A stretch of DNA of 44,259 nt. Origin: Candidatus Methanomethylicaceae archaeon (lineage in GTDB: Archaea; Thermoproteota; Methanomethylicia; Methanomethylicales; Methanomethylicaceae). The DNA is taken from positions 1 through 44,259 of the forward strand of contig JACTUC010000012.1 of the NCBI GenBank assembly GCA_015660995.1, read 5' to 3'. The notes below the pieces were generated by a model. It ran no database searches. It saw nothing but the letters and a program-made list of their open reading frames with translations, and had not been told where the DNA came from. Shown here one piece after another: positions 9,677 through 21,913 of this stretch; the first letter of the stretch is position 1; each line of letters begins with the position of its first letter. Position numbers and translations under genes: made by a program.

Positions 9677-9988
9677 TTATGGCCTTGGCACGACAGAGCG
9701 GCCAGAGATCTTAATGGCCTCTGCTGCGTTGTCAGGCTTTATCTCAAAGGCGAGCGGCCTCTGGCACCACCAGAACTTCTTGTCGACATCCGCCTTGAAG
9801 TACGGGCATTTAGAGCAGCATCTTGCCTCCAATTTAAGGAGGTACCAAAGTGGTGGAGCCTCGTCGGACGGGAAGCTCTTCTGTGGCCACGGTTTCTCCT
9901 TCGAGACGTAACCTGGGCATTTCGGTGATACCCTGGGCTCTACATTTAGTATGTTCTTATATTCTGGGCACAAATTGCAACATGGCAT
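9677..9988 (-). CDS. Small protein with two CCxxC metal-binding-type motifs
   Basis: The 103-residue protein has eight cysteines in two similar groups: Cys3, Cys4, Cys7 and Cys24, then Cys57, Cys58, Cys61 and Cys75. Each group reads CCxxCP, with one further Cys 14-17 residues later, which suggests an internal duplication that binds two Zn2+ or Fe-S centres. I do not recognise the family. It follows the carbamoyltransferase with a 14-base gap, and GGAGGT lies just before the ATG, so the two are co-transcribed. It could be a partner or electron carrier of the pyrimidine pathway; this is inference. Confidence 0.75.
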   Translation of the reverse strand: MPCCNLCPEYKNILNVEPRVSPKCPGYVSKEKPWPQKSFPSDEAPPLWYLLKLEARCCSKCPYFKADVDKKFWWCQRPLAFEIKPDNAAEAIKISGRSVVPRP

Positions 9989-10002
9989 GTTCCATTACCT
10001 CC

Positions 10003-11040
10003 TTACTTGCGTCCTCCCATGTTCAGCGCCATTATACCCTTCTGGCCGTGGAGCCTGTTCTCAGCCTCGTCCACTGAGACGGACCACCGGTTGGAGAAGA
10101 TAACTTCTGGTTCTACCTCCACGCCTACGTCGGCAGGCAGGCAGTGCATCCAGATGCTGTTCTTCTTAGTCTTGTCCATCTTCGCAGGGTTTGTCTTCCA
10201 AGCGCCTAGGTCATGGGCCTTCTTGTACTCCTCGTGAGGTACTTCGTTGTATTTGGCAGCCTTTAGCAGATCCCAGCTGCACCAGCCCTTCGGGTAGACC
10301 ACCAGAGCGTCGTTGAACGCGTCTTCCATATCATTTGTGATCTCGAACTTTGTGCCGTACTGGTCTGCAAGCTTCTTTGTGTATGCTTCTACAGCAGGGT
10401 CGAGGTTGAACTTCTTCGGGTACGCCAATGTCACGTCCATCTCAAGGAGCCTTGTGAAGAAGATTATGTTAGTTTGTGGGACTGCGACTGGCTTCCATGC
10501 ACCTGGGCTGTTGGCATAGGACATGACGAACTTCTTGCCTCTTAGGTTCCTTGTATTGAACTTCTCCATGACAGTCATTATGTCTGCAACACCCTGGCAG
10601 GGGTGCCACATATCGCACTCCATGTTTATGACTGGGACTGTTGAGGCTTTTGCGTACTCTCTCATTGTGAGGTTGCCCTCTCCGTAATACAATCCCTTGA
10701 TGTACCTTCTGAGGGCGAGGCCGTCAAACATCTGACTCATGATTGCGGCGGTCTCGTAGATTGTCTCACCGTGGGAGATCTGCAGTTTGCCTGGGTCCAA
10801 GTCGTAGGCTATGCCGCCTAGCTGGGTTATGCCAGTAATGAATGACGATCGGGTTCTCGTAGAAGGGTTGAAGAATAGCGTGGCGAGCGATTTGTTGGCA
10901 CAGATGTCCTCGTGCTTCTGCCCCCTAGCGTTCTCGCGCTTAAGGTCGAAGCCTGTGTCGATTACGGTCCATAGTTCTTCATCGTTCCATTCAATTTCTG
11001 GAGCGATCCAATGTTTTCCATGCAGTTGTGTTTTTACCAA
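10003..11040 (-). CDS. Carbamoyltransferase (OTC fold, YgeW-like), candidate N-carbamoyl-beta-alanine phosphorolysis
   Basis: The 345-residue protein has the carbamoyl-phosphate site STRTR (60-64), HPCQ (146-149) and HCLPA (299-303) of the aspartate/ornithine carbamoyltransferase superfamily. The ornithine-binding SMG loop is absent: the same place reads WCSWD (253-257). It is therefore not a normal ornithine enzyme and most resembles the YgeW group, linked in enterobacteria to ureide breakdown. Its neighbours are dihydropyrimidinase and dihydropyrimidine dehydrogenase, so I propose it splits N-carbamoyl-beta-alanine with phosphate to beta-alanine and carbamoyl phosphate. The TTG start has GGAGGG 6 bases upstream. 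Family sure; substrate inferred. Confidence 0.82.
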   Translation of the reverse strand: MVKTQLHGKHWIAPEIEWNDEELWTVIDTGFDLKRENARGQKHEDICANKSLATLFFNPSTRTRSSFITGITQLGGIAYDLDPGKLQISHGETIYETAAIMSQMFDGLALRRYIKGLYYGEGNLTMREYAKASTVPVINMECDMWHPCQGVADIMTVMEKFNTRNLRGKKFVMSYANSPGAWKPVAVPQTNIIFFTRLLEMDVTLAYPKKFNLDPAVEAYTKKLADQYGTKFEITNDMEDAFNDALVVYPKGWCSWDLLKAAKYNEVPHEEYKKAHDLGAWKTNPAKMDKTKKNSIWMHCLPADVGVEVEPEVIFSNRWSVSVDEAENRLHGQKGIMALNMGGRK

Positions 11041-11167
11041 ACAATTCCCTCCGTTTTATGTTTGGTAATATAGATCAACGAGGTTAAATATCCTTTCTGG
11101 ATATCAAACTGGGTTCTATAATTTGGTTAAGCAGGAGAATTGTCGGCAAAATAAACCAAGAGCGCGA

Positions 11168-11195
11168 AATTAAAAAAAGGAAAGGGAAAAGCGCC
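11168..11195 (-). terminator. T-rich stretch after dihydropyrimidinase
   Basis: On the minus strand, a run of seven T follows pyrimidine-rich sequence directly after the dihydropyrimidinase stop codon. It may end or weaken transcription before the carbamoyltransferase, which has a 158-base leader and could use its own promoter. Confidence 0.4.
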
Positions 11196-11198
11196 CCT

Positions 11199-12572
11199 CT
11201 AGAGAGGGATATGCTTGCCCCTAGACACGAATTTGCCTGCCCCTTTCTTGCCTACAAGCTTCCTGTCGTACAGAACTGGAGTACCCCTCACGAAGGTGTG
11301 GGTAGGCATGCCTTTGGCCACCATACCCTCAAACACCGTGTAGTTTGATTTGGAATGCAGGTTCTTTGCCGTGAGCTCCATCTCGCACTTTGGATCGAAT
11401 ATGACTATGTCTGCATCGCTGCCTATGTTCAAGCAGCCTTTTGCTGGATACATTCCAAAGATCTTTGCTGGGTTGTAGGATGTGAATTTGACCATCTGAT
11501 TGAGGGTGATCCTATTCTTCCGTACCCCTTCGCTGAATAGGACAGGCACCATTGTCTCCGTACCGGGAGCGCCGTTTGGAACCTTAGTGAAGTCGTCCTT
11601 CCCCACGTCTTTTTGGGCGTCGTTGAAGGCGCAGTGGTCGGTTGCAACTGTACTCAGGATCTCATCATATAGGCCCATCCATAGGGCGTCGTTGTCATCC
11701 TTGCTCCTCAGCGGTGGGGACATTATGTATCTCCTCCCCTTTGGCGAGAGGTACTTTTCGTCGGTTAATGTCAGGTAGTGGGGGCATGTCTCCCCATAGA
11801 CGTTTGCAAACCCTTTAGTATTTGCAAGCTCAGCCAGCGATTCCATACAAGTCATATGAACGACATAGAGGTTTCCGCCGGTCGCGGCTGCCAATGCGAG
11901 TGCCCTGTGGGTCGCTTCAGCTTCAACAAAGTTGGGTCTACTCTTGGCATGGAACTCTGCCGATGTGTTACCAGCCTTTATGTACCTTTCCTTCAGCATC
12001 TCGAGCACGGTGTCGTTCTCTGCATGCACCTGAACCAGGAAGCCATGCTTTTTACTCTCTTCCAGCATTCTGTAGATCCTAGCATCATCGCTGAAAAGTC
12101 CACCTTTGCTGTAGGTCATGAAGAGCTTGAAACTGGAGACGCCAGCTTTGAGCACTTCTGGAATCTGCTTCACCAGATCGTCTGTTAGGTTTGTTACGGC
12201 AACATGGAAGCCAAAATCTATGAAAGCCTTAGGGTCGGCTTTGCCATGCCATATCTTCAGCGTTTCTAGGAAGTCCTTGTCCTTGGGCTGCATAGCAAAG
12301 TCGAGGAGCGTAGTTACACCACCATAGGCAGCGCAGGTTGTCCCAGATTCGAAGTCATCAGCTGTCACTGTTCCCATGAAGGGCATGTCCATATGGGTGT
12401 GCGAGTCTATAGCGCCAGGGAAGACATACTTCCCTTTGGCATCTATAACGTCGTCTGCCTTGCCTGGGATGTCCGTGCCAATGGCAACGATCTTGCCATC
12501 GTCCACGCCGATGTCGGCTTTGATAGAGTCTGTTGGAGTAATTAGTGTTCCGCCTTTAATTAACAAGTCCAT
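11199..12572 (-). CDS. Dihydropyrimidinase (D-hydantoinase family)
   Basis: The 457-residue protein is a cyclic amidohydrolase with a full dinuclear metal site: His58 and His60 (DSHTHMD), the carboxylated Lys149 (SSFKLFMTY), His183 (HAEN), His239 (HMT) and Asp312 (ATDHCAF). Family length is 450-490. Dihydropyrimidinase opens dihydrouracil to N-carbamoyl-beta-alanine. Allantoinase or hydantoinase activity is possible by fold, but the adjacent dehydrogenase subunits point to dihydropyrimidines. AGGGG precedes the ATG by 8 bases. It is third in the minus-strand gene order preT-like, preA-like, this gene, carbamoyltransferase, Cys-rich protein. Confidence 0.88.
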   Translation of the reverse strand: MDLLIKGGTLITPTDSIKADIGVDDGKIVAIGTDIPGKADDVIDAKGKYVFPGAIDSHTHMDMPFMGTVTADDFESGTTCAAYGGVTTLLDFAMQPKDKDFLETLKIWHGKADPKAFIDFGFHVAVTNLTDDLVKQIPEVLKAGVSSFKLFMTYSKGGLFSDDARIYRMLEESKKHGFLVQVHAENDTVLEMLKERYIKAGNTSAEFHAKSRPNFVEAEATHRALALAAATGGNLYVVHMTCMESLAELANTKGFANVYGETCPHYLTLTDEKYLSPKGRRYIMSPPLRSKDDNDALWMGLYDEILSTVATDHCAFNDAQKDVGKDDFTKVPNGAPGTETMVPVLFSEGVRKNRITLNQMVKFTSYNPAKIFGMYPAKGCLNIGSDADIVIFDPKCEMELTAKNLHSKSNYTVFEGMVAKGMPTHTFVRGTPVLYDRKLVGKKGAGKFVSRGKHIPL

Positions 12573-12595
12573 TTTAAATTCCCCTGTATTAATAA

Positions 12596-12623
12596 CATAA
12601 AAAGGGGAAAAAAGGTTTCCCCT
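12596..12623 (-). terminator. Hairpin plus T-run between the dehydrogenase and dihydropyrimidinase genes
   Basis: The arms AGGGGAAA (12603-12610) and TTTCCCCT (12616-12623) are a perfect 8-bp inverted repeat with a 5-base loop. On the minus strand the stem begins within the preA-like stop codon and is followed by TTTTT. The shape is that of an intrinsic terminator or a processing site and could lower expression of the downstream genes. Confidence 0.6.
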
Positions 12624-13830
12624 ATTTCTTGACGCGCTTCCAGGTTATGCAACCTGGTACTGGGCATGACAGAGTGCAGAGCGAGCAGGCGTCGCATTTC
12701 TCTTCATCGACCTCTGCTGCCTTACCCTGCTCGAACTTTATTGCCTGGTAGCCACCATCCCTACAGCCAACAAAGCAGATCCCGCACTTGATGCACTTGT
12801 CCTTGTCGATCTTCGCAACAACCTCCCAATCCTTGTCTAGCTTGGACCAGGCCGTTAGCTTGGGGAGAGTCAGCCCCTGTATCTCTTTGACTGAACTGAA
12901 GCCCTTGTCGTCTAAGTACTGGGTCAGACCATCAACCATGTCGTGTATCAACCTGTAGCCACGCCACATGACCGATGTGCAGACTTGGACGTTGTTGGCG
13001 CCTATTAGGAGGAATTCGACTGCGTCCCGCCATGTGGTTATGCCGCCTATGCCCGACACAGGGATATTTGTAGCTTGGCAAAGCTGGGCCACGCATCTCA
13101 TCGCGATTGGTTTCATGGCTGGACCGGACATACCGCCGAAGGTGCTTTTCCCGTTTACGGTCGGCATTGGCTCAAAGGTGTCTATGTTGACGCCTATTAG
13201 CCCGAGCACCGTGTTTATTGCGGATATCGCGTCCGCGCCTGCCGCCTCGGCTGTCTTCCCCATGAATGCTATGTCCGTAACGTTGGGGGTCAGCTTGACC
13301 ATAATTGGCACATTGGACCCCTGCTTCGACGCCTTTGTTAGCTTCTCGATGAGCTCGGGCCTCTGCCCGCAGAAAGCTCCCATGCCGCGTTCGGGCATCC
13401 CGTGGGGGCACCCGAAGTTCAACTCAAGCATGTCAACGCCTGCCTCGCTCACTGCCCTTGCCAGGGCTTCCCATTCATCCTCCTTTGGCTCGGCCATTAG
13501 GCTCCCGATCAGTGGCTTCTCCGGGTACTTCTTCTTTACCTCCTTGATCTCCTTGATCCATGTGCCCAGCGGGCGCTTTGTGACCTCCTCGATGTTCTCA
13601 AAGACGACCATCTGCTTGTCCTCGAAGCCCATTATGCCAAAGCGGTTGTCATAGTCGTATACCGCTGTCTTGTCAGGCTTGATTGTCTTTGTTACTGCCC
13701 CTGCCCAACCCTCCTCGAACGCACGCATTATCATCTCGCCAGTGCACGTTGGTGGCGCTGATGAAAGCATGTACGGGCTCTCAAGCTCTAGTTTGCAGAA
13801 TTTTACCGTTAGATCTGGTTTGGTTACCAT
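12622..13830 (-). CDS. preA: Dihydropyrimidine dehydrogenase, catalytic FMN/4Fe-4S subunit (PreA-like)
   Basis: The 402-residue protein joins a dihydroorotate-dehydrogenase-type barrel to a C-terminal two-cluster ferredoxin domain (Cys346/349/352/356 and Cys379/382/385/389). The active-site loop reads CPHGMPERGMGAFCGQ, nearly the same as the mammalian enzyme, with the general-acid Cys at 154. Asn-Thr-Val at 206-208 also matches the pyrimidine site. These residues separate it from dihydroorotate dehydrogenase. The protein reduces uracil or thymine to the dihydro form together with the PreT-like subunit, 13 bases upstream. GAGGTGA lies 6 bases before the ATG. Confidence 0.92.
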   Translation of the reverse strand: MVTKPDLTVKFCKLELESPYMLSSAPPTCTGEMIMRAFEEGWAGAVTKTIKPDKTAVYDYDNRFGIMGFEDKQMVVFENIEEVTKRPLGTWIKEIKEVKKKYPEKPLIGSLMAEPKEDEWEALARAVSEAGVDMLELNFGCPHGMPERGMGAFCGQRPELIEKLTKASKQGSNVPIMVKLTPNVTDIAFMGKTAEAAGADAISAINTVLGLIGVNIDTFEPMPTVNGKSTFGGMSGPAMKPIAMRCVAQLCQATNIPVSGIGGITTWRDAVEFLLIGANNVQVCTSVMWRGYRLIHDMVDGLTQYLDDKGFSSVKEIQGLTLPKLTAWSKLDKDWEVVAKIDKDKCIKCGICFVGCRDGGYQAIKFEQGKAAEVDEEKCDACSLCTLSCPVPGCITWKRVKK

Positions 13831-13843
13831 GTCTTTTCACCTC

Positions 13844-15193
13844 TCACTTTCTCCCCGACAGATACTTGTCTATTGCCTCCGCTGCCTTCTTGCCCTCAGC
13901 CACAGCCTCAACCACGGTGTCTCCTCCGTTCACAGCATCGCCGCCCGCGAAGACCCCCTTAATCGATGTGGCATAATTCTTGTCCACCTCGATAAGGCCA
14001 TCCTTCACCTTGACCCCAAAGGATTTGAGCGCGGCCTCGTCAGGCTTCTGGCCTACGGCAAGGATCACGACGTCAGTCTCCACTGTGAACTCAGATCCCT
14101 TGATCGGCTTGACGCTCCGCCTTCCCGATGCATCTGGGGAGCCGAGTTCCATCTTGACACACTCCACACCAGAGACCTTATTGCCACCAATGATCTTCAC
14201 TGGGGCTGTTAGCAGCATAAATTCCGCGCCCTCTTCCTTTGCTTGTTTCCTCCCGTACGGGACAGCAGGCATCTCGGACAGGGAGCGTCTGTAGAGGACG
14301 TAGACCTTCTCCGCACCCAGCCTCAGGGAAGCCATCGCACAGTCAATCGCTGTGTCCCCACCGCCGACGACCACAACCTTCTTACCCTTGAGTTCCGGTG
14401 CCTTCCCCTCGCCCTTGACGTAGCAAGCCACCTTGTAAAGGAAATCCTGAGCAAGGTGTACACCTGGAAGGTCCTCGCCGGGTATTCCCAGACCTGCAGA
14501 TTTTGTCGCGCCGGTGCTGATATAGACAGCATCGAAATCCTTGAGAAGCCCCTTCGCATCAGCTATGGGCTTCTTTGTGAGGAGTCTCACGCCGTACTCC
14601 TTTATGTTGGCGATTTCACTCTCGGCTACGCTCCATGCAACCTTCCAAGGGAGGATGCCGTATATCAGCAGTCCACCTGGCTTTGCGTTGGAGTCGCAGA
14701 CTGTGACCTCATAGCCTTTTCGGCCCAGCTCATACGCAGCGGAGAGACCGGCAGGTCCTGCCCCCACAACAGCAACCTTCTTCTTGTTTGAGGGGGCTTT
14801 GTCAAACTTGACAAGACCCTTCGGCTTTTCCATCTCATATACAAACCTTTGCAATAGGGATATTGCAACAGGTTCCTCACCAAGATTGTTTCTCACACAT
14901 TTCGACTCGCAAAGCCTCTCGACAGGGCAGACATAGCCGCATTCTCCGCCGAAGATATTGCTCTCCCTGATGATTTTTGCAGAGCCACGATAGTTGCGCG
15001 TCTTTATCCTGAATATGAATTCAGGTATGTTGATCCTAGTTGGACATGCTGTGACGCACGGGGCGTCGAAGCACATAATGCAGCGGGATGCTTCATACCA
15101 AGCTGTCCTGTCGATGAGGTTTGCGACGTAGGGATCGAATGTCTTTATTCGGTCTTGTGGAGTCAAAACGGTTGTATGGGTTCTACCAGACAT
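13844..15193 (-). CDS. preT: Dihydropyrimidine dehydrogenase, FAD/NAD(P)H subunit (PreT/GltD-like)
   Basis: The 449-residue protein has an N-terminal cysteine-rich Fe-S domain (CIMCFDAPCVTACPT, then CGYVCPVERLCESKC), an FAD Rossmann site (VAVVGAGPAGLSAA) and an NAD(P)H site (VVVVGGGDTAIDCA). This layout is shared by PreT, the N-terminal half of mammalian dihydropyrimidine dehydrogenase, and the small subunit of glutamate synthase. The LLQRF segment keeps the Gln that ligates a cluster in the mammalian enzyme. The preA-like gene directly downstream decides for PreT. ATG 15193 is chosen because AAGGTGA lies 8 bases ahead. An AT-rich TATA-like stretch lies at 15212-15222. Confidence 0.88.
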   Translation of the reverse strand: MSGRTHTTVLTPQDRIKTFDPYVANLIDRTAWYEASRCIMCFDAPCVTACPTRINIPEFIFRIKTRNYRGSAKIIRESNIFGGECGYVCPVERLCESKCVRNNLGEEPVAISLLQRFVYEMEKPKGLVKFDKAPSNKKKVAVVGAGPAGLSAAYELGRKGYEVTVCDSNAKPGGLLIYGILPWKVAWSVAESEIANIKEYGVRLLTKKPIADAKGLLKDFDAVYISTGATKSAGLGIPGEDLPGVHLAQDFLYKVACYVKGEGKAPELKGKKVVVVGGGDTAIDCAMASLRLGAEKVYVLYRRSLSEMPAVPYGRKQAKEEGAEFMLLTAPVKIIGGNKVSGVECVKMELGSPDASGRRSVKPIKGSEFTVETDVVILAVGQKPDEAALKSFGVKVKDGLIEVDKNYATSIKGVFAGGDAVNGGDTVVEAVAEGKKAAEAIDKYLSGRK

Positions 15194-15310
15194 TGGAAAA
15201 CTCACCTTAGAGGAAAATATTTATCCCATAACCACGCTTTAAGGGTTTTCATTACTGATGGCAAAAGGCTTAAACATGGCGATACGCGAGACCTTGGGTG
15301 GTAATTCATT

Positions 15311-15970
15311 TTGATCAAGGGCGTTATATTTGACCTCGACAGCACACTTGTCGATTCGGTGGAGACTATATGGAAGTGCTCCGATCACGTGCTAAGGGAG
15401 AACGGGTTCAAGGGGGTCGACAGGGAGACAGCCAAGAGAGCCATGGGCTTAACGATATTCTACCTCTTTGATCTAGCTGAACCCGGTCTGAGCAAGGCGC
15501 AAAAGCAGAAGCTCTTCAATGATTACAGGGGTTCGTACATGGAGTATGTCGGTTACAGCAAGCTGCTCCCATACGCGCGCGAGTCGCTCGAGTATGCAAA
15601 ATCAATCGGTCTGAAGCTAGCGCTCGTGACGACGAAGAGCAGGATGAACGCAGGAAAGATCCTCAAATCATTCAGGCTCTTGGATTTCTTCGATGCCATC
15701 CTCGGCTACGAGGACACCTTAGAGCATAAACCCTCTGCCGAGCCGATGCTCAAGGCATCACTCGCACTCAATTTAAAGCCGAAGGAGATGGCTGTGATCG
15801 GGGATACAGAGATGGATGTAAGGGCCGGGAAGGGGGCAGGTTCGATTACGGTAGCAGTGACGACCGGAGTTAAGACTGCAGAGCAACTGCAGGCAGAGAG
15901 ACCGGATTACATTATTGCGACTCTCTTTGAGCTACCTAAAATACTCAGCGGGTTGGTCTCAGTAGACTAA
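15311..15970 (+). CDS. HAD-superfamily phosphatase (phosphoglycolate phosphatase-like)
   Basis: The 219-residue protein has the HAD motifs: DLDSTL with Asp8 and Asp10, a Thr in VTTKS, Lys in the HKPSAEP segment, and the acidic GDTEMD near residue 164. A helical cap lies between residues 15 and 85. Such enzymes dephosphorylate small phosphates such as phosphoglycolate or beta-phosphoglucomutase-type substrates. The gene is divergent from the preT-like gene, with about 115 bases between the starts. The TTG start has GGTGG about 8 bases upstream. A role in pyrimidine breakdown, for example removing phosphate from a nucleotide, is possible but not shown. Confidence 0.8.
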   Translation: MIKGVIFDLDSTLVDSVETIWKCSDHVLRENGFKGVDRETAKRAMGLTIFYLFDLAEPGLSKAQKQKLFNDYRGSYMEYVGYSKLLPYARESLEYAKSIGLKLALVTTKSRMNAGKILKSFRLLDFFDAILGYEDTLEHKPSAEPMLKASLALNLKPKEMAVIGDTEMDVRAGKGAGSITVAVTTGVKTAEQLQAERPDYIIATLFELPKILSGLVSVD

Positions 15971-15998: not shown

Positions 15999-17291
15999 CT
16001 ACTGGGTAATGGTCTTCAGCGCCTCGTCGAAGACTACAATAGCCTTGTCAATGTGTCCCCTGGTAAGCACAAGGGGTGGCTCTATTCGCACCACGTTTCC
16101 GTCCAGACCACCAAGCCCTATGAGAACCTTTCTCTTCCAGACTTCTTGCAGTAGCTTCGCTGCCGCATCCTTGGCCGGCTCCTTCGTCTTCCTATCCTTG
16201 ACCAGTTCCATGCCAAGGAAGAAACCCTCGCCTCTGACGTCACCTATTATCTCGTGCGTCTCCATTAGAGCCTCCAACGAACGCTTGAAGTACTTCCCAT
16301 TCTCCCTGGCCTGTTCTATCAGGCCACTGGTGAGTTCATCAAGGACGACCATAGCAGCTGCGCATGAGAGAGCGTTGCCGCCGAGGGTCGAGTAGTGTTC
16401 ACCGGGCTTGAGGGAGCTGTCCAGCTCCTGGCTGTAGAGGGTGACGCCAAGTGGCAGGCCGTTTGCTATCGCCTTTGAGGTCGTGATCGCATCTGGGATA
16501 ACCCCGAAGTGTTCTATACCCCAGAGCTTGCCTGTCCTGCCGTTGCCCGACTGAACCTCATCCGCAATGAAGAGTATCTGGTACTTGTCGAGGACCTTCT
16601 TCACCTCTCTGAAATAGTCTAGCGGAGGGACTACCATCCCGCCATTGGCCAGCATGGGCTCAGCGAGGAGAGCAGCCACGGCTTCTCCACCGACCTCACA
16701 CCGCAGCACGTCCTCCATATACTTCACGCATGCGTAGCCGCATTCTGGACAAGAGTCATGGCCGAGCGGGCATCTGTAGCAGTAGGGATCTGGCGCGAAG
16801 ACAACGGGGGCGAAGGGTCCCAGACCTACCTTCCACTGCGACTGCCCCAGTGCGCTCATGGCGTAGAAGGTCCGCCCGTGGAAGGACCGGTGGAGCGACA
16901 TTATGTAGGGCCTTTTAGTGACCCTTCTGACTATAGATATTGCAGTCTCGTTTGCCTCGGAGCCACTGTTTGTGAAGAATGATTTTGTGAGCGCCTGACC
17001 GGGGCTGAGCTCAGCCAGCTTCTTCGCTAGCCTCGCTGTGTGTTCCAAGTAGTAGGAGGAGGAGATGTGAAACATCTTTTGGAGCTGCTTCTCCACCGCC
17101 TCTATTACGCGGTCGTCTGACCAACCTACGTTCACTATGGATACCCCGGCGTAGAGGTCAATGTAGGCTTCCCCATCGATTGTGAAGACCGTGTCCCCCT
17201 CTGCGTAGTCTGGGACGAAAGTGTAGAACCTACGGTACATGCGGGAGAGGTACTTTTCCGAGAGGTCTACTATCTCCTTCGTGTGATCCAT
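15999..17291 (-). CDS. Class III aminotransferase, AGXT2-like (beta-alanine/3-aminoisobutyrate type candidate)
   Basis: The 430-residue PLP enzyme shows NSGSEA at 108-113, the PLP-contact Asp244 (ADEVQSG) and the Schiff-base Lys273 (TTSKAIANG). The block CYRCPLGHDSCPECGYAC at 171-188 carries five Cys in a short stretch and resembles the insertion in AGXT2 relatives. AGXT2 transfers amino groups from beta-alanine and 3-aminoisobutyrate to pyruvate or glyoxylate, which would follow directly from uracil and thymine breakdown next door. AGAGGA precedes the ATG. It sits after a cupin gene on the same strand, so it may be in a separate transcript from the dehydrogenase genes. Confidence 0.85.
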   Translation of the reverse strand: MDHTKEIVDLSEKYLSRMYRRFYTFVPDYAEGDTVFTIDGEAYIDLYAGVSIVNVGWSDDRVIEAVEKQLQKMFHISSSYYLEHTARLAKKLAELSPGQALTKSFFTNSGSEANETAISIVRRVTKRPYIMSLHRSFHGRTFYAMSALGQSQWKVGLGPFAPVVFAPDPYCYRCPLGHDSCPECGYACVKYMEDVLRCEVGGEAVAALLAEPMLANGGMVVPPLDYFREVKKVLDKYQILFIADEVQSGNGRTGKLWGIEHFGVIPDAITTSKAIANGLPLGVTLYSQELDSSLKPGEHYSTLGGNALSCAAAMVVLDELTSGLIEQARENGKYFKRSLEALMETHEIIGDVRGEGFFLGMELVKDRKTKEPAKDAAAKLLQEVWKRKVLIGLGGLDGNVVRIEPPLVLTRGHIDKAIVVFDEALKTITQ

Positions 17292-17309: not shown

Positions 17310-17654
17310 TCATTTCGGCGGGACATTTATTGCGATGAGCCAGAGGGGCGTCTTGCTGGTGTTCTTGATCGAGTGCACCATGTTGGGCGGGAAGATCACG
17401 GAGTTACCTGGCTTGACCTTGTACTCGTCCTTACCTATGGTAACCAGTCCGTGCCCCTTCAGGATGTAATAGGCCTGCTCGAAGGGGTGCGTATGCGGAT
17501 CTGCATAGCCCCCGACCTCGAACTCCGAGCGAAACATTGAAAGGTTCTTGCACCCTGCGTTGGCTTCCTCCAGCATGACGCGGGCGTTGCACTTGATGTG
17601 TCCTGCTGGAACGAAGGTACGGACTTCCTTGGGGTCTAAAACGTACTTTACCAT
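17310..17654 (-). CDS. Small cupin-domain protein
   Basis: The 114-residue protein is a single cupin barrel: motif 1 HTHPFEQAYYILKG followed by motif 2 GNSVIFPPNMVHSIKN. The His, His, Glu and His metal ligands are present. Single cupins act as isomerases, dioxygenases or sensors of small acids, and the substrate is open. ATG 17654 is chosen because AAGGTG lies 6 bases ahead. The aminotransferase gene starts 18 bases after the stop, so the two probably act together. Confidence 0.82.
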   Translation of the reverse strand: MVKYVLDPKEVRTFVPAGHIKCNARVMLEEANAGCKNLSMFRSEFEVGGYADPHTHPFEQAYYILKGHGLVTIGKDEYKVKPGNSVIFPPNMVHSIKNTSKTPLWLIAINVPPK

Positions 17655-17744
17655 TTGTAACACCTTGGCTATAAAAAGGGTCGAAGTTGTAATAAAGTCT
17701 GTCGGGAGGGTGATGCTCCCCTGCCTTTGGCGTTAAAGAATACG

Positions 17745-18308
17745 TCAGGGTGGCAGTAGAGTGCGAATGTTCGAGCAGGTCACAAGTTCTATTTCCTTTA
17801 CCCCGAAGCCTGCCCAGTCCAAGTGATGTGCGACCTTCGGAAGGGCAAGCGGGTCGGATGGGGTATTTCCCAGATCGCTGTTTACGACTATTCCTTCTGG
17901 TCCGTTCTTCGATAGGATATCTGCGACGTCTTGGGGCGTTGGCTTGCCAGGCTGGACCATCAGCCCGGCGACAACTCCCGCTGACCTCGCCTTCGGCACA
18001 AGATCAGGTGTCAGGTGATCCATAATGACTCTTCCAGGGTCAATCTTCTCGGACTCGATGACTAAAAGGAGCTTATTGAATATCTTTGGCTTGTTTGATC
18101 GTGGCGTGTGAATTATGATGGGGGCAGCGTATTCATTGGCTATCCGCATCTGCTGCACGAGGATTTTCTCCCCTTCATTGCTATCCGTCTCCAAACCCAC
18201 CTCGCCCAATGCCGAGACCTGCTTGTTGCCAAACAGGGCGCGGATGTGGCCAAGGACTTTTTTCGTTCCCTCAATGGGGATTGAGCGCGGATGAATGCCA
18301 ACAGCCAC
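17745..18308 (-). pseudogene. TatD/COG1099-like hydrolase, C-terminal part after an in-frame TGA
   Basis: This part starts with GTG right after the TGA of the upstream part and stays in the same frame, so the two would make one protein of about 255 residues. It carries the later metal-site blocks: GIHPRSIP, GEVGLE, IIIHTPR, IMDHLT and NSDLGN. The product would lack the first HxH pair and could not be active alone. It may be made by restart at the TGA-GTG junction, by read-through, or not at all. A point mutation or a sequencing error are equally good explanations. Confidence 0.6.
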
Positions 18309-18512
18309 TCACGTGCTGAGCCCGAACTTACTGAGCCTCTCCGGCTCCTCCTCGATCAACCATTTGTAGAGATCGATGAGCGTAGACAGCCCTGATGGTT
18401 TAACTGGGTAGTATGAGCAAATGACTACACCTTCCACACCTGCCTGCGCCATCAGTTCTAGGTCTTCGGAACTCCTTAGATAGATATGCGTGTGGGAGTC
18501 GATGAAGCGCAT
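18309..18512 (-). pseudogene. TatD/COG1099-like hydrolase, N-terminal part ending at an in-frame TGA
   Basis: The 67-residue part begins MRFIDSHTHIYLRS, whose His7 and His9 are the first metal ligands of the TatD-type amidohydrolase barrel. It ends in the segment ERLSKFGLST, where full-length relatives run straight on to the GIHPR block. The TGA at 18309-18311 is followed at once by GTG in frame. The family is a predicted metal-dependent hydrolase or nuclease. No sign of other damage is seen in the frame. Confidence 0.6.
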
Positions 18513-20378: not shown

Positions 20379-21023
20379 CTGTCCAAAGAGAGCCTGCTGA
20401 AGTTAAGGAGGGCCATAATCGACCAAGACTTGAACGGCGCCATGGGGTCCACAATAGCCTGCTTGGGTGAGAACATCGACCCCGCTGAGATAATTGACGT
20501 GGCGGCTGGCGCGCTGAAAGAGGTGGGCGACCTCTTCGAAGGAGGGGAGCTCTTCCTCCCAGAGGTAATGCGGGCAGCCAACGCTGCTAAGGCTTCGCTG
20601 AACATAGTGCTGCCGCTGGCAGCAAATACTGGGACCAGGGGGCGAGGATCGAGGGGGCAGGTCGCGATAGGCTCACTCGGCCCCCACGACATCGGGAAAA
20701 CGATTGTGACGTCCATGCTGATAGCGGACGGGTTCGACGTGCTGGACATAGGAACGTGTATAACCCCCACCAAGGTGGAGGAGGCTCTTGAAGTTGGGAC
20801 TTCTGCTTGTGTCCTGGCGCTCTCAGTCCTGCTCACATCGGACATCGACAAGTCCGCCGAGATAATACGAAGATCCAAATTGACAAGGGGAAGCCTGAAG
20901 GTTATGGTTGGGGGAGCGGCAATGAACGACAAAGTTGCGAAGATGATTGGTGCCGATGCCTACGGGGTAGACGCCAACGAGGCAGTCAAGCTAGTGAGAA
21001 AATTCATGGAGGCTTCACATTGA
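20379..21023 (+). CDS. Corrinoid protein of methyltransferase systems (MtaC/MtbC-like), CTG start proposed
   Basis: About 214 residues: an N-terminal helical cap (ALKEVGDLFEGGELFLPEVM) and a cobalamin-binding Rossmann domain with GPHDIGKTI, where His is the lower cobalt ligand, then SVLL and GGAAMN. The Asp two places before the His in the usual DxHxxG motif is Gly here. The frame has no ATG, GTG or TTG early enough. CTG 20379 has GGGGG 7 bases upstream and restores the first helix; TTG 20430 is the fallback. It should carry a methyl group from MtrH to the MetE-like protein, whose gene overlaps its stop. Confidence 0.88.
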   Translation: MSKESLLKLRRAIIDQDLNGAMGSTIACLGENIDPAEIIDVAAGALKEVGDLFEGGELFLPEVMRAANAAKASLNIVLPLAANTGTRGRGSRGQVAIGSLGPHDIGKTIVTSMLIADGFDVLDIGTCITPTKVEEALEVGTSACVLALSVLLTSDIDKSAEIIRRSKLTRGSLKVMVGGAAMNDKVAKMIGADAYGVDANEAVKLVRKFMEASH

Positions 21024-21913
21024 TAAAAACGACGGTAATAGGGAGCCACCCCGTTGTGGGTGAGGGGCTCGCAGCGGTCGAGACAGCAGTGAAGGACCAA
21101 ATTGAGGCTGGCATAGACATCATAAGTGATGGTCAGACGAGGACGGATATGGTCTCGTATTATGCTGATCATATCCCCGGGTTCAAGGTAGAAGGCGGGA
21201 GGTGTTTCATCGTTGGCAAGATCAAGCCGTCAGAGGCGACGCCTGTGCCAGAGGACCTCCTTTTCGCCAAGAAGTTAGCTGGGGGGAAGGCCGAAGTTAA
21301 GGCGATAGTGACCGGACCTGTAACTATGGTCTTCTTCTCAGAACTCACACCTAGCGCGCCATATAAGGGGTTTAGGGATGAGGTGCTCTTCAGAGACGTC
21401 TCTGATGCGCTGGCAATGGAGGCAGAACTCATTCAGAAGAAGGGATTCTTCAACTTCCAGTTCGATGAGCCCAGTTTCTCGATAGGTGCGCCGATGGCAC
21501 TCGCAAGGGATGCGCTAGAGAGGACGGTGGCGGACGTGAAGGGAACTAAGGCACTCCATGTCTGCGGCAACCTTAGGAGATCGTTCAAGGAGATAGTCCC
21601 CATAGAGGGGATAGACGTGCTCAGCTTCGCGTTCAAGGACAGCGTGAGCAACTTCGACACTGTAGACAGGAAGCTCCTTGAGGATTACTCGAAGAGGCTG
21701 GGCGTTGGCTGTGTCAGTTCCACCGAGAATAGCGTCGAGGATGTGGAAGTTGTGAAGGGCGTGATCAGGAAGGCTCTTGGGCTCTATGGCCCGGAGGGTA
21801 TTGCGTGGGTTCATCCAGACTGCGGGATGCGGGCGCTGGAGAGGGAGGTCGTGAGGTCAAAGCTCAAGAACATGGTGAAAGCAGTAAAGGGTATGGAGGT
21901 TGAGCTGCGATGA
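21020..21913 (+). CDS. MetE-core methyltransferase, likely corrinoid-dependent methionine synthase
   Basis: The 297-residue protein equals the C-terminal catalytic half of cobalamin-independent methionine synthase. It has the zinc residues His and Cys in HVCGN and the late Cys in HPDCGMR. The Glu ligand usually found about 20 residues after the first pair appears to be Ala (LSFAFKDS). Archaeal core-MetE enzymes use methylcobalamin or a methyl-corrinoid protein instead of folate. TTG 21020 overlaps the corrinoid-gene stop (TTGA) and has GGAGG 7 bases before it. It most likely methylates homocysteine; another thiol acceptor is possible. Confidence 0.88.
   Translation: MIKTTVIGSHPVVGEGLAAVETAVKDQIEAGIDIISDGQTRTDMVSYYADHIPGFKVEGGRCFIVGKIKPSEATPVPEDLLFAKKLAGGKAEVKAIVTGPVTMVFFSELTPSAPYKGFRDEVLFRDVSDALAMEAELIQKKGFFNFQFDEPSFSIGAPMALARDALERTVADVKGTKALHVCGNLRRSFKEIVPIEGIDVLSFAFKDSVSNFDTVDRKLLEDYSKRLGVGCVSSTENSVEDVEVVKGVIRKALGLYGPEGIAWVHPDCGMRALEREVVRSKLKNMVKAVKGMEVELR

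Follow-up and report, generated by a model that had tools for sequence, protein, structure and literature searches.

A block of five minus-strand genes at 9677-15193 of the window (the whole stretch of DNA analysed, 44,259 nucleotides) probably encodes reductive pyrimidine (Pyd) degradation that ends in phosphorolysis, after which carbamate kinase would give ATP. Gene identities, linkage, co-occurrence and empty sites were the observed basis of this reading. PreT and PreA would use NAD(P)H to turn uracil into dihydrouracil, the ring of which dihydropyrimidinase would open to form N-carbamoyl-beta-alanine. A YgeW-like carbamoyltransferase (CTase) would cleave this product phosphorolytically, yielding carbamoyl phosphate as well as beta-alanine, and carbamate kinase would convert carbamoyl phosphate and ADP into ATP, CO2 and ammonia. 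Uracil could serve as an energy source, at best with one ATP per uracil and after one reduction step. An earlier note on this DNA had proposed the same route with a nearby aminotransferase as a further member; CTase in the place of beta-ureidopropionase, the carbamate kinase and the gene order were upheld, and the aminotransferase as a part of the pathway was not.

Enzymes of the block

The window came from a Methanomethylicota archaeon with a genome of 1.63 Mb in 28 contigs, the close relatives of which were Candidatus Methanomethylicota (Verstraetearchaeota) MAGs. The four enzymes previously noted were all present as ORFs on the minus strand between 9677 and 15193. The order of transcription was PreT, PreA, dihydropyrimidinase, CTase and finally a Cys-rich protein of 103 aa; the intergenic gaps were 13, 49, 158 and 14 bp.

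PreT (13844..15193, minus strand) was the FAD/NAD(P) subunit, with a Fer4_20 domain. Alignment with relatives (e.g., L019, 4875-6236) placed its start at the ATG at 15193; a longer ORF ran from a GTG at 15205. PreA (12622..13830, minus strand), the FMN subunit of dihydropyrimidine dehydrogenase with a 2x4Fe-4S domain, exceeded its curated cut-off (NF006183, 531.9 bits vs. 335). Aligned to pig DPD (1gt8), PreA retained N609, N668, the catalytic C671, N736 and T737, and had Gly in place of S670. These six are DPD residues that contact uracil, and the uracil-type active site claimed for PreA was retained except for S670G. Dihydropyrimidinase (PydB; 11199..12572, minus strand; 457 aa) was also above its curated cut-off (TIGR02033, 521 bits vs. 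393), had D-hydantoinase 1k1d and dihydropyrimidinase 3sfw as its nearest PDB entries, and possessed the full metal site described before (HxH58-60, K149, H183, H239 and D312).

PreT/PreA and dihydropyrimidinase corresponded to the first two steps of the Pyd pathway (PydA/PreTA, PydB and PydC, extended by PydD and PydE), and lay in one operon-like block. Unlike the Pyd pathway, the block was without PydC, with CTase in that place and a co-occurring carbamate kinase, and the adjoining class-III aminotransferase is at most a putative PydD. The absence of beta-ureidopropionase from the block was confirmed by a domain and family search of the block ORFs. A catabolic-type CTase, inside the block and co-occurring with PreA, occupied the place of that enzyme, as had been proposed.

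The Cys-rich protein (9677..9988, minus strand), separated from CTase by 14 bp, was encoded by an ORF within the block coordinates that had been left out of the earlier note. It had eight Cys, arranged as two CCxxC clusters and two single Cys, and adjoined CTase in every relative checked, including L022 (44% identity). No match to it was found in Pfam or NCBIfam, nor in viral contigs. The conserved motifs CCxLCP, CPGY, CCxxCPY and WWC suggest a metal or Fe-S site.

Class of the carbamoyltransferase

CTase (10003..11040, minus strand; 345 aa) contained the OTCace_N and OTCace domains, and its motifs were as first described (STRTR, HPCQ and HCLPA, with YPKGWCSWD replacing the SMG loop). It reached none of the curated family cut-offs (OTC, acetylornithine, YgeW and putrescine models). 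CTase did not qualify as an ornithine carbamoyltransferase (OTC), with DxxxSMG absent (WCSWD) and a TIGR00658 score of 197.9 vs. 280.85. Scores were likewise below the cut-off with the N-acetylornithine carbamoyltransferase model (NF003384, 202.2 vs. 288) and the putrescine carbamoyltransferase model (TIGR04384, 171.4 vs. 500), and far below it with the YgeW models (NF005538, 186.6 vs. 453; TIGR03316, 182.1 vs. 500). The best PDB match of a profile built from eight CTase orthologues was E. coli YgeW 3q98 (2.4e-56), followed by YgeW 2yfk.

Knotted transcarbamylases (AOTCase, SOTCase and YTCase) have a proline-rich loop, an extended 120's loop and a lysine opening the 240's loop (PMC4581275). 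CTase carried this signature, with the proline-rich loop SPGAWKPVAVPQ, a 120's region longer than in OTC, and an invariant lysine in YPKGW. Judged by its sequence, CTase is a probable member of the knotted, YgeW-like class. An AlphaFold model of CTase made from eight close homologues had a pLDDT of 39.6. Phylogenetically, Methanomethylicota CTases formed one clade (100/100), separate from two other archaeal clades, and YgeW attached weakly to the Methanomethylicota clade (83/81, long branch).

In E. coli, YgeW acts in reductive uric acid degradation together with HyuA and the carbamate kinase YqeA; a knotted-type CTase was likewise accompanied here by a carbamate kinase and a cyclic amidohydrolase, and phosphorolysis of a ureido acid is proposed here too. 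The two CTases differed in that they shared 34% identity and in that CTase partnered uracil-type PreT/PreA, not YgfK/SsnA/XdhD. YgeW (YTCase) has additional N- and C-terminal helices and an extended 240's loop (PMC4581275). CTase had neither the long terminal extensions (345 vs. 396 aa) nor the long 240's loop; its 240's region was shorter than that of YgeW and longer than that of the OTC of the same genome.

E. coli YgeW phosphorolyses a 2-ureido group in vitro, in a reaction that, according to the authors, is reversible and thermodynamically less favourable than hydrolysis (PMC12507026). As YgeW was nearest by structure profile, this precedent argues for phosphorolysis by CTase, and we infer its substrate, the direction of its reaction and the formation of ATP. 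The same genome encoded a full de novo pyr operon with ATC and, separately, an OTC, which makes a biosynthetic need for CTase unlikely. Phosphorolysis by OTC, the model case of the CTase fold, is thermodynamically uphill, which counts against the pathway proposed here.

Distribution among relatives and empty sites

A carbamate kinase was found on another contig of the same genome (TIGR00746, 398.8 bits vs. a cut-off of 358.25), as the earlier note had suggested it might be. It lay beside regulator and radical-SAM genes, which also flanked the kinase in L019. CTase was present in 7 of the 22 family genomes and PreA in exactly those 7; carbamate kinase was present in the same 7 and in G006 (59% complete, match at a contig edge). 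Co-occurrence with CTase across these 22 related genomes had, with shared ancestry ignored, Fisher p = 6e-6 for PreA and p = 5e-5 for carbamate kinase. Presence and absence were both observed within one genus, with the pathway in G005 and not in G003 and G004.

Carbamate kinase was within approximately 3.5 kb of CTase in six relatives (G005, G016, G017, G018, G019 and G120). Of the seven relatives compared, six shared the gene order; L022, the remaining one, had the same order minus PreT and PreA. The core of L022 (G120) consisted of dihydropyrimidinase, CTase, the Cys-rich protein and carbamate kinase, with no PreT or PreA in the cluster, so that the ring substrate could differ there. Linkage and co-occurrence of PreA, CTase and carbamate kinase support a phosphorolytic last step.

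Six genomes free of the pathway (G001, G002, G003, G004, G020 and G021) kept the order SerB, Trx, TatD-like gene, aminotransferase and INO1. None of the genes from PreT to the Cys-rich protein was found between the aminotransferase and INO1 in these six empty-site stretches. Ends of the aminotransferase and INO1 overlapped or were a few bases apart in four of the six, and in G003 and G004 a stretch of roughly 1 to 2.6 kb between the two genes gave no match. These empty sites argue for the gain or loss of the pathway genes as one unit, with the aminotransferase, the TatD-like gene and Trx as old neighbours. A HAD-family phosphatase (15311..15970, plus strand) had no match in the six empty-site stretches and accompanied the island. 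A small Cupin_2 protein (17310..17663, minus strand), possibly an extra enzyme or a regulator, was present at the CTase loci that reached so far, L022 included, and missing at the six empty sites.

The class-III aminotransferase (15999..17291, minus strand) gave no sign of being AGXT2-like, as it had been called, and was closest to archaeal enzymes of the 4-aminobutyrate and isoleucine-epimerase types. Its membership in the pathway did not hold either: six pathway-free genomes carried it in the same position, and a role of this gene in beta-alanine metabolism is therefore weak. MfnA as an alternative source of beta-alanine was non-discriminating (match in the window's genome only, below the cut-off), and this pattern did not support a role in CoA supply. 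The TatD-like gene (17745-18512, minus strand) was broken by a single in-frame TGA (18309-18311), where relatives had a sense codon; either a sequencing error or a recent pseudogene would account for it. Corrinoid-protein-like and methylcobamide-methyltransferase-like ORFs, judged by sequence alone, were observed near the block (20430-21913).

Alternative readings and known ureide phosphorolysis

According to the earlier note, a beta-ureidopropionase elsewhere in the genome and linked to these genes would have spoken against the phosphorolytic reading. None so linked was found, and an unlinked YgeY-like M20 hydrolase was present. The sole CN-hydrolase of the genome was unlinked and Nit2-like (168.8 bits with Nit2 vs. 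35 with human-type beta-ureidopropionase; also close to deaminated-glutathione amidase). It was found in 17 of the 22 family genomes independently of the pathway, with no match in 3 of the 7 pathway genomes. Four M20 matches were obtained, none linked to the cluster, and three of them resembled DapE/ArgE, LysK and aminopeptidase types. The fourth (contig C2, L115:2012-3244) passed the YgeY model PRK13004 (340.6 vs. a cut-off of 321), failed the other YgeY model, TIGR03526 (288.4 vs. 321.5), and was 33% identical to E. coli YgeY. In E. coli, YgeY acts hydrolytically on the 3-ureido group of albizziin, a beta-ureido group (PMC12507026), and the C2 M20 protein is thus the strongest loose end, which leaves a hydrolytic route open. 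Cleavage of N-carbamoyl-beta-alanine by this hydrolase, with some other job for CTase, is nevertheless quite unlikely, as the C2 M20 gene was away from the cluster whereas CTase was inside the block and tracked PreA. The logic of ring opening and phosphorolysis might also apply to a different ring: if hydantoin or some other cyclic ureide is opened, the resulting N-carbamoyl amino acid (e.g., N-carbamoylglycine) would be phosphorolysed by CTase. The dihydropyrimidinase/hydantoinase family accepts rings of both kinds, the nearest solved chain to dihydropyrimidinase was a D-hydantoinase, and in the L022 cluster CTase and carbamate kinase accompanied dihydropyrimidinase in the absence of PreT/PreA. 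In the family of the window, however, PreA always occurred with CTase and kept the catalytic Cys and most uracil contacts of DPD, and a different ring is an unlikely substrate.

A reductive purine (uric acid or xanthine) pathway resembling E. coli ygeW-hyuA-yqeA-ygfK would agree with the likeness of CTase, dihydropyrimidinase and carbamate kinase to YgeW, HyuA and YqeA (34, 37 and 42% identity, respectively), and with the participation of PreA-like UacX in uric acid degradation by C. difficile (PMC12507026). Such a pathway is highly improbable here, however: its signature enzyme SsnA was missing, a single CTase of this kind was present instead of two, and PreA was of the true type (531.9 bits), whereas a UacX-like protein from a different Thermoproteota genome scored 195.7, under the cut-off. 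The only two Amidohydro_1 proteins of the window's genome were dihydropyrimidinase and PyrC; SsnA-type uric acid degradation was discarded on this basis, and the missing SsnA makes uric acid degradation unlikely in this genome. Every step is in principle reversible, and archaeal carbamate-kinase-like enzymes are able to make carbamoyl phosphate, as would be needed if the pathway ran in reverse from beta-alanine to uracil or if CTase took part in arginine-type biosynthesis. The complete de novo pyr operon and the separate OTC and ATC, and the failure to find carbamate kinase in 14 of the 22 family genomes, render this biosynthetic direction very unlikely.

The proposed phosphorolysis of N-carbamoyl-beta-alanine has counterparts in the catabolism of other ureides. 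Uric acid (YgeW, PMC12507026) and allantoin (AllFGH, PMC11326118) are known to be degraded phosphorolytically, and a route of this type has been proposed for ureidoglycine (PMC4016543). The E. coli oxamate transcarbamylase AllFGH and a catabolic carbamate kinase similarly perform an energy-yielding ureido phosphorolysis followed by the carbamate kinase reaction, whereas AllFGH is a different enzyme of three subunits with oxalurate as its substrate. Rubrobacter ureidoglycine carbamoyltransferase (UGTCase) is comparable in that it works in nucleobase degradation and has a carbamate kinase and a cyclic amidohydrolase as neighbours (PMC4016543), and differs in belonging to the unknotted ATCase branch and to a purine route. 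No report of phosphorolytic ureide catabolism for pyrimidines or in archaea was found in the open-access literature.

CTases 35-48% identical to that of the window were observed in other Thermoproteota, frequently in two paralogous copies and accompanied by carbamate kinase and by SsnA-like and PreA/UacX-like proteins. Clusters there (L083:3328-10891, L085:3198-10763 and L073:3689-14390, and also L081, L084, L072 and L076) contained threonine-synthase-like and cysteine-synthase-like PLP enzymes, and some contained molybdenum hydroxylases. These clusters possibly encode reductive degradation of purine (uric acid) in archaea, with phosphorolysis of each of the two ureido groups. Tentatively, the archaeal knotted-type CTase family may salvage nucleobase ureido groups in the form of carbamoyl phosphate, a single enzyme serving for uracil in Methanomethylicota and a pair of paralogues serving for both ureido groups of a purine in other Thermoproteota.

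The proposed activity would name a function for a CTase clade that no curated model captures and that is readily confused with ornithine carbamoyltransferase. If the wider pattern is true, nucleobase catabolism would be ATP-yielding across Methanomethylicota and the other Thermoproteota with such CTases. In textbook uracil breakdown, the ureido group is lost as CO2 and ammonia; a phosphorolytic ending would save one ATP per uracil in these uncultured archaea, as in arginine and allantoin degradation.
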